Part shown: in pieces, positions 36,779 through 38,539 of the stretch
How positions within the stretch are numbered: position 1 is the first letter of the stretch
Layout of the letters: each line of letters begins with the position of its first letter
NCBI GenBank assembly: GCA_016873735.1
Contig: VGWD01000015.1
Span: 1 to 50,736, forward strand
Reading direction: 5' to 3'
DNA: 50,736 bases
Source of the DNA: Ignavibacteria bacterium
Lineage (GTDB): Bacteria > Bacteroidota > Ignavibacteria > Kapaibacteriales > UBA961
Translations under genes and position numbers: made by a program
The notes under the pieces: generated by a model
What the model was told of the DNA's origin: nothing
Seen by the model: the letters and a program-made list of their open reading frames with translations, nothing else
Databases searched by the model: none

Positions 36779-37669
36779 TCACGATTCAGAAATAAGATGC
36801 TCGATTGGCAAATCAATATTTCTGAAATGAATACGCATGTTCTCATCAACAGTCAACATTGAATTTCGCTCTACTTTCATCCATTCAGATCGTTTGGATG
36901 TGAATGGTTCAGAAGCAACGACAATTGCATGTGGTTTGCCTGTGCTCGGCTCCATCATGCAAGATTCCTCTCTACAATGATATTCGGTGCCATACATATA
37001 GTACATTGAAGCTGGTTGCACGCTATGATTTGTAGTGTAGCGAACCGCAATCAAACTATCACCATCTGTCAGACATGCATTGATATAAGAATGTTGCTTT
37101 ATCGAAGATTCAAGCAATATCTTGCTTAGGTCTTGCAAAGCCGATTCCATAGCATTCATCAATTGTTCGCTTGTAATGTCCGCATATGGGTCATCTATAT
37201 GATTCAATATCAAACCAAACAAATGCTCTGAATCCGTTGAACCTGAAATTGCATCATATGAGGTGTCATTCAAACTTCTCAAAAGGGATCTGCGTATTTC
37301 CTTGAAACCGCCAATCACACCATTGTGCATGAACATCAAACGACCGCATGTGAATGGATGAGAATTGTATTCCTCAACCGGCATGCCGGGCGAAGCAGCC
37401 CGAATATGTGCAAAGATCGATGGTGCATGTATTTTTCTTGCCAGATTTCGAAGATTCTGATCGCTCCAGGCCGGCTTTATACTTCGGAAAACGCATGGCT
37501 CAGGGTCCAAACCCGGGGCATACCATCCTATACCAAATCCATCGCCATTGACTTGCGCACTCATCTCTCCGGCATTCACGCTCTGTGCGGAAATCAGCGA
37601 ATACCTCGGCTTATAGAGCAGGTCGTCCGCTAAAACCGGACTCCCCAGATATGCGACAAATCTGCACAT
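36779..37669 (-). CDS. Class II glutamine amidotransferase, EgtC/YafJ-like
   Basis: This 296-aa Ntn-type glutaminase-like domain protein has Met removal exposing the nucleophile Cys2 (MCRFVAYLG), so ATG 37669 is the functional start although the frame extends to 37747. NGDGFGIGWYAPG, FAHIRAASPG and FMHNGVIGGF are the typical substrate-binding and oxyanion segments. Related proteins include EgtC, which hydrolyses gamma-glutamyl bonds in ergothioneine synthesis, and the YafJ group. No egtB or egtD gene is nearby, so ergothioneine synthesis is not supported by this window. The unit has its own candidate promoter at 37696-37726. Confidence 0.88.
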   Translation of the reverse strand: MCRFVAYLGSPVLADDLLYKPRYSLISAQSVNAGEMSAQVNGDGFGIGWYAPGLDPEPCVFRSIKPAWSDQNLRNLARKIHAPSIFAHIRAASPGMPVEEYNSHPFTCGRLMFMHNGVIGGFKEIRRSLLRSLNDTSYDAISGSTDSEHLFGLILNHIDDPYADITSEQLMNAMESALQDLSKILLESSIKQHSYINACLTDGDSLIAVRYTTNHSVQPASMYYMYGTEYHCREESCMMEPSTGKPHAIVVASEPFTSKRSEWMKVERNSMLTVDENMRIHFRNIDLPIEHLISES

Positions 37670-37726: not shown

Positions 37727-37794
37727 CCACGGAATACCATCAATCAAAGTTCAAAGCAGGTTGAATGAAAAGTTTTTCACAGTTTTTCAACATA

Positions 37795-37829
37795 AAAAAA
37801 TCCGCTTGATTCACAGAATTCAAGCGGAT
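37795..37829 (-). terminator. Rho-independent terminator after the CADD-like gene (minus strand)
   Basis: ATCCGCTTGA (37800-37809) pairs with TCAAGCGGAT (37820-37829) around a 10-base loop, with a T run on the minus strand to 37795. It lies 21 bases after the stop codon of the CADD-like gene. Confidence 0.88.
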
Positions 37830-37849
37830 CTGACCGAAGTCTTTATTGA

Positions 37850-38539
37850 TCAAGCAGCTTGCTTGTCAACACAATATGTTTCATACACACCATCAAGAAG
37901 AAGATTCAAAGCATCTGCTGCTTCTCTTGCAGCATCAAGTGCTATGATTTTTTGATCATCTGTTGTGCAAAGACGAACAAGTGCATCCCGAGTGACTTGT
38001 CTGTGAATAATATCGGCATCTTCATGCACCTCAAAGAACACAAGCGCATCTTCACAGTCCAAATTATATTTGTTCTTCAAGCCTTCAATCTTGGTTGTGC
38101 AGATTTCAGGAATTTGTGATTCATAAGCATACAAAGCAGCAAGGCCTTCAGCCGGATTATCTTTTCCGGCAAGTTCTTTAAGAATTTTGACGGATTGCTT
38201 TGTATGCGGGAGATATTTGCGAGACATCATTTCTTCTCTGCTGATACCGAGAGCATCACCGAATCTACGCCAGAGTTCAGGGTGATTGTTTGGGCCATGC
38301 TCCTCTTCAATCAAGTTTTCAAGTAGCATTTGGCGCACTTCCATGTCATCGCACTTGGAATGTGTGGCACTGACATATGTCGGGAAATGATGCACTTGTT
38401 GATAATATTCAAGGGCATATTCACGTAACATTTGAATTGTCAAATCGCCCGTGTTCCACATTTGATAAAAAGGATGCTGGAGCATGTGACGCTCATTGAT
38501 GATTGCATCAAGTTTTTGGAGAAATTCTTCATTTGTCAT
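37850..38539 (-). CDS. CADD-family di-iron protein, likely self-sacrificing p-aminobenzoate synthase
   Basis: This 229-aa helical protein of the TenA/PqqC-like heme-oxygenase fold is clearly closest to Chlamydia CADD (CT610), for example in HSKCDDMEVRQMLLENL and LYAYESQIPEI. All six metal ligands of CADD have counterparts two residues earlier: Glu79, His86, Glu140, His172, Asp176 and His179. The Tyr that CADD sacrifices as precursor (Tyr27) corresponds to Tyr25 in HPFYQMW, and Lys152 corresponds to Lys150. CADD makes p-aminobenzoate for folate from its own side chain in organisms that lack pabABC. Here the same chemistry is inferred from residue conservation. It has its own terminator and a possible -7 element at 38581-38588. 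Confidence 0.87.
   Translation of the reverse strand: MTNEEFLQKLDAIINERHMLQHPFYQMWNTGDLTIQMLREYALEYYQQVHHFPTYVSATHSKCDDMEVRQMLLENLIEEEHGPNNHPELWRRFGDALGISREEMMSRKYLPHTKQSVKILKELAGKDNPAEGLAALYAYESQIPEICTTKIEGLKNKYNLDCEDALVFFEVHEDADIIHRQVTRDALVRLCTTDDQKIIALDAAREAADALNLLLDGVYETYCVDKQAA

Follow-up and report, generated by a model that had tools for sequence, protein, structure and literature searches.

The 229-aa protein encoded by the first entry of Table 1 is very probably a synthase of the CADD/NePabS type that makes p-aminobenzoate (pABA) in a single turnover, and the only source from which this organism obtains pABA for folate. Its sequence, predicted fold and catalytic residues, together with the gene content of the genome and the pattern across the lineage, all point in this direction. 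The gene lies in the window, that is, the whole stretch of 50,736 nucleotides that was analysed, which is contig C15 of genome G000 (2.26 Mb in 61 contigs, with an estimated completeness of 99.89%).

Table 1. Positions of the features discussed in the text.
Feature	Coordinates	Strand	Basis
CADD-family self-sacrificing pABA synthase (predicted), 229 aa	37850..38539	-	TIGR04305, Pfam, AlphaFold model
Tyr25 codon, predicted sacrificial tyrosine (CADD Tyr27, NePabS Tyr25)	38465..38467	-	alignment; role from PMC11965152
Lys150 codon, predicted amino donor (CADD Lys152, NePabS Lys159)	38090..38092	-	alignment; role from PMC11965152
Intrinsic-terminator-like hairpin with U-rich tail, directly after the CADD gene	37794..37831	-	RNA fold
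EgtC-like class-II glutamine amidotransferase, first gene downstream of CADD	36779..37669	-	TIGR03442, PF13230

The coordinates that a preliminary description of this DNA had given for the open reading frame stood; the frame lies on the minus strand, as the plus-strand frame is interrupted by stops. The start codon is ATG, at 38539, and an AGGA motif precedes it by about 8 nt. The protein scored 281.7 bits (E = 3.5e-84) with NCBIfam TIGR04305, the model of the CADD family, whose curated cut-off is 200 bits, and it also matched PF03070/PF14518 in Pfam. It shares 40% identity with CADD over the full chain and 43% with NePabS; because of this E value and the whole-chain identity of 40%, a chance likeness to CADD is excluded. 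The preliminary description had proposed modelling the fold and superposing it on CADD. The AlphaFold model (pLDDT 94.4) has a heme-oxygenase-like predicted fold whose nearest known structure is CADD, which was the top Foldseek match (TM 0.88-0.95, rmsd 1.5 A). Moreover, VIA-align placed residues 5-220 of the model on residues 7-220 of CADD with a Z of 32.1 and, for 214 residues, an rmsd of 1.1 A; PqqC came behind (Z 28.1, 2.3 A). Other identities were rejected by their NCBIfam scores, namely PqqC (TIGR02111, 64 bits vs a cut-off of 240), TenA thiaminase II (TIGR04306, 23.8 bits vs 130) and BesC (NF042919, 48.8 bits vs 500).

All six metal ligands previously assigned to the protein (Glu79, His86, Glu140, His172, Asp176 and His179, comprising three His and three carboxylates) are indeed present, and so are Tyr25 and Lys150, which had been equated with CADD Tyr27 and Lys152. 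The offset of two from CADD, described earlier as constant, is consistent over most of the chain in the structural alignment; for this comparison we presumed the CADD ligand numbering. Tyr41, Tyr45 and Trp90, which were absent from the earlier list, are also found in the protein, and their counterparts in NePabS are Tyr41, Tyr45 and Trp99 (PMC11965152). Thus the predicted sacrificial tyrosine, the lysine and the essential second tyrosine (Tyr41) are all in place. In fact, 13 of 13 catalytic positions are present, and they are kept across the 111 canonical homologues surveyed, many of which are near relatives or represent one genome in two collections. The Tyr/Lys pair is missing from PqqC, the closest of the other families; in 5vrc, HPFY is replaced by HPFH and KIEGL by RVAGM. 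In one CADD homologue, L129 (G034:C11), Glu140 is replaced by Lys and extra residues are inserted close to the last three ligands; this may be a degenerate gene or an assembly error.

The genome that carries the window has no protein of PF00425 (chorismate-binding enzymes, including PabB and TrpE) according to a profile search that was positive in 14 of 14 control genomes. Its sole class-IV aminotransferase (PF01063) is IlvE, with 338.7 bits vs a cut-off of 279, so the PF01063 search found no PabC-type aminotransferase, and a family search found no chorismate synthase (AroC). The preliminary description had made its reading depend on the lack of pabABC. For PabB and PabC this lack is borne out and even exceeded, as judged from the PF00425, PF01063 and AroC searches. 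FolP (dihydropteroate synthase) and FolK (HPPK), for which a search had been suggested, are both encoded, as are MetH and COX1 (haem-copper oxidase). The CADD homologue is accordingly found in a folate-making genome that lacks these chorismate enzymes. Since FolP, FolK, MetH and an oxidase are present and the chorismate enzymes are not, the cell requires pABA, cannot make it from chorismate and probably has access to O2. The folate genes are not adjacent to the CADD gene. Lacking both kinds of chorismate enzyme, the synthase and the chorismate-binding ones, the organism probably has to import its aromatic amino acids, and the COX1 gene points to a probably aerobic life. We infer a free-living lifestyle from the nearest MAGs, which are labelled Kapaibacterium, OPB56 and Ignavibacteria, from the 2.3-Mb genome and from the respiratory genes.

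We scored 119 genomes of the same order for CADD, PabB, chorismate-binding enzymes and chorismate synthase. In families f1, f2, f4, f6 and f7, CADD exceeded the cut-off in 50 of 52 genomes, and none of these 52 possesses PabB, TrpE, any chorismate-binding enzyme or chorismate synthase. PabB and AroC are likewise missing from all six congeners and from the other family members. Two near relatives, G013 (82% complete) and G039 (99% complete), contain neither CADD nor PabB, so that CADD can apparently be lost where pABA is salvaged or comes from a source not seen here. In families f8-f10 both chorismate synthase and chorismate-binding enzymes are retained, with CADD in 12 of 14 genomes and PabB in only two; the two chorismate-binding enzymes of f8 that were typed are closest to TrpE. 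None of the 50 genomes of family f3 encodes a canonical CADD that reaches the cut-off, and 11 of them have PabB. About 25 genomes of the order (e.g. G038, G048, G061, G064 and G067 of f3) possess neither PabB nor either form of CADD, the canonical one or the shorter one described below.

A CADD-family gene and PabB occur together in two genomes, G022 and G036. The CADD-family protein of G022 has intact catalytic residues despite PabB. In G036 (family f9), the protein L130 (G036:C88) scored 207 bits, just over the cut-off, and Tyr25, Tyr41 and Lys150 are all replaced by Phe; the PabB of this genome, L035, is closest to the model PRK07508 and scores a little less than the curated PabB cut-offs require. 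The case resembles a natural experiment in favour of the self-sacrificing role, although it is the only one. COX1 is present in 62 of 62 genomes with CADD, a pattern consistent with an O2-using enzyme but of little proof value, because all eight COX1-less genomes fall in one family. Fisher p-values computed across the genomes take no account of relatedness and carry no weight as proof here. Our literature search found no paper tying Kapabacteria or Kapaibacterium to folate or CADD.

The chemistry and the metal can be proposed by analogy with the two characterised homologues. The dimetal centre held by the six ligands would activate O2, and the oxidising equivalent would reach Tyr25 via a Tyr/Trp relay (Tyr41, Tyr45, Trp90 and perhaps Tyr139). 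The side chain of Tyr25 would be cleaved off to provide the ring and the carboxyl carbon of pABA, with the carboxylate oxygens coming from O2 and the amine from Lys150, and one protein would be consumed per pABA. FolP would then couple pABA to pterin. As the genome has no chorismate synthase, the ring of pABA would ultimately derive from imported tyrosine built into the protein.

The residues flanking the metals are Tyr141/Tyr170 in CADD (Mn/Fe) and Phe148/Phe177 in NePabS (Fe/Fe), and the F148Y variant of NePabS works similarly well with either Fe/Fe or Mn/Fe (PMC11965152). The pair in the 229-aa protein is Tyr139/Phe168. It matches the engineered F148Y state, and the window enzyme is therefore a natural counterpart of a laboratory variant; Tyr139 beside Phe168 suggests a predicted centre that may accept either Fe/Fe or Mn/Fe. 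The same pair is found in 111 of 111 canonical homologues surveyed, including those of the cyanobacteria Okeania, Trichodesmium and Microcoleus, and Tyr/Tyr is found in L174, one member of another family in the class. L126/L157 (G053), a CADD-like protein of intermediate length and with 150 bits, has the Tyr/Lys pair; Val stands in place of Tyr139, and Tyr in place of Phe168.

We also found a separate clade of CADD-like proteins of 185 aa in families f3 and f5, which reach about 33-87 bits with TIGR04305 (cut-off 200). Since the clade lies far under the NCBIfam cut-off, it would be missed by standard annotation, and a literature search found no description of it. Its tree support is 100/100, and its branches are long. 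The members (L141-L156) come from 16 genomes, and no canonical CADD or PabB that passes the cut-off is present in any of these. Among the 13 complete aligned members, Tyr13, Tyr29, Tyr33, Trp72 and Lys121 are invariant, and so are Glu65, His68, Glu111, His142, Glu145 and His148; they probably correspond to the residues that serve as sacrificial site, relay and ligands. The ligand spacing is ExxH + HxxExxH vs Ex6H + Hx3Dx2H in the canonical proteins, and because of this difference Glu65 and Glu145 are only tentatively regarded as ligands. The metal-flanking pair, Phe110/Tyr138, is the mirror of Tyr139/Phe168 in the window protein. The model of a 185-aa protein (pLDDT 96) has CADD as its closest fold (Z 23.3), followed by HrmI (Z 18.9). 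We put at about even the chance that the order replaced the chorismate-pABA route by two deeply split self-sacrificing kinds, the canonical one (Tyr139/Phe168) and this undescribed clade. If so, the 185-aa proteins would constitute a new and compact class of putative suicide pABA synthase. The natural metal-site variants (Tyr/Phe, Phe/Tyr and Tyr/Tyr) let the choice of Mn/Fe vs Fe/Fe and the radical path be probed.

The HDO superfamily is chemically diverse, and the nearest folds include PqqC, HrmI, FlcD, UndA and BesC, which raises the alternative of an HDO-fold oxidase with another substrate in a cell that imports pABA or folate; a few relatives with neither CADD nor PabB indicate that salvage may occur. 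We nevertheless regard this as quite unlikely, because every one of the 111 surveyed homologues retains the Tyr/Lys pair and Tyr41, which PqqC does not share, the PqqC, BesC and TenA models of NCBIfam all stay far below their cut-offs on this protein, and G036 combines PabB with the loss of exactly these three residues. That the canonical pABA pathway is present, hidden in an assembly gap or too divergent, seems highly improbable: the assembly is in 61 contigs and its completeness is an estimate, but that estimate is nearly full, PF00425 was recovered in every control and not in this genome, chorismate synthase is absent as well, and the congeners and family members agree in lacking PabB and AroC.

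An additional role beside pABA synthesis, such as one in which the neighbouring class-II glutamine amidotransferase would supply or restore nitrogen, is unlikely. The amidotransferase matches PF13230 and scores 196 bits with TIGR03442, under the cut-off of 218.65; NuoL also lies downstream of the CADD gene. The f1 and f2 loci share the order CADD-amidotransferase-NuoL, and Chlamydia CADD has been described as a moonlighting protein (PMC11965152). However, our neighbour survey did not find the linkage of CADD and amidotransferase in f4, f6, f8 and cyanobacterial loci, and the conserved order with NuoL suggests plain synteny. Moreover, the hairpin between both genes is strong, with -21.5 kcal/mol for 37785-37850 (z = -3.65; none of 200 shuffled sequences was equally stable), although it was not listed by the consensus scan. 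Co-transcription is therefore doubtful, which weakens the case for a CADD-amidotransferase operon.

pABA synthesis by self-sacrifice, the reading we prefer, had been assigned in the preliminary description only to intracellular pathogens, which is out of date. NePabS (NE1434) has been characterised from Nitrosomonas europaea, a free-living soil bacterium; it rescues E. coli deleted for pabABC, and in vitro formation of pABA is known for homologues. The enzyme is also listed for further environmental bacteria, among them Chloroflexi and Sphingomonas (PMC11965152). CADD and NePabS are both biochemically proven self-sacrificing pABA synthases (PMC11965152; review PMC13108848), and a comparative-genomic study of 2007 had already connected CT610 with folate genes (PMC1971073). 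Judged by its peptides, PDB 9pj4 is probably NePabS. What is new here is the lineage-wide replacement with absence of chorismate synthase, the uniform Tyr/Phe pair at the metal site, and the short clade. As a result, what had been an oddity of some intracellular pathogens and a single ammonia oxidiser becomes the apparent standard pABA route of an environmental group without chorismate synthesis.

Compared with known systems, the window protein has its helical fold in common with PqqC, TenA, BesC and UndA, but the models of the first three score far under their cut-offs on it, and PqqC lacks the Tyr25/Lys150 pair. CADD (CT610 of Chlamydia trachomatis; 1RCW, 8VA9) has the same fold (Z 32) at 40% identity, with the ligands and the Tyr/Lys pair at an offset of two, and the Chlamydia genome likewise lacks pabABC. 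It differs in its Tyr141/Tyr170 pair with Mn/Fe, in its folate gene cluster, whereas the window gene has no folate neighbours, and in a reported role in host apoptosis. NePabS differs in having Phe148/Phe177 (Fe/Fe), where the window protein resembles the F148Y variant, and in carrying a loop, some 10 residues long, that the window protein lacks. However, its Tyr25/Lys159, Tyr41, Tyr45, Trp99 and ligands are all matched in the window protein, its organism is free-living, and its gene is likewise not clustered with folate biosynthesis genes.
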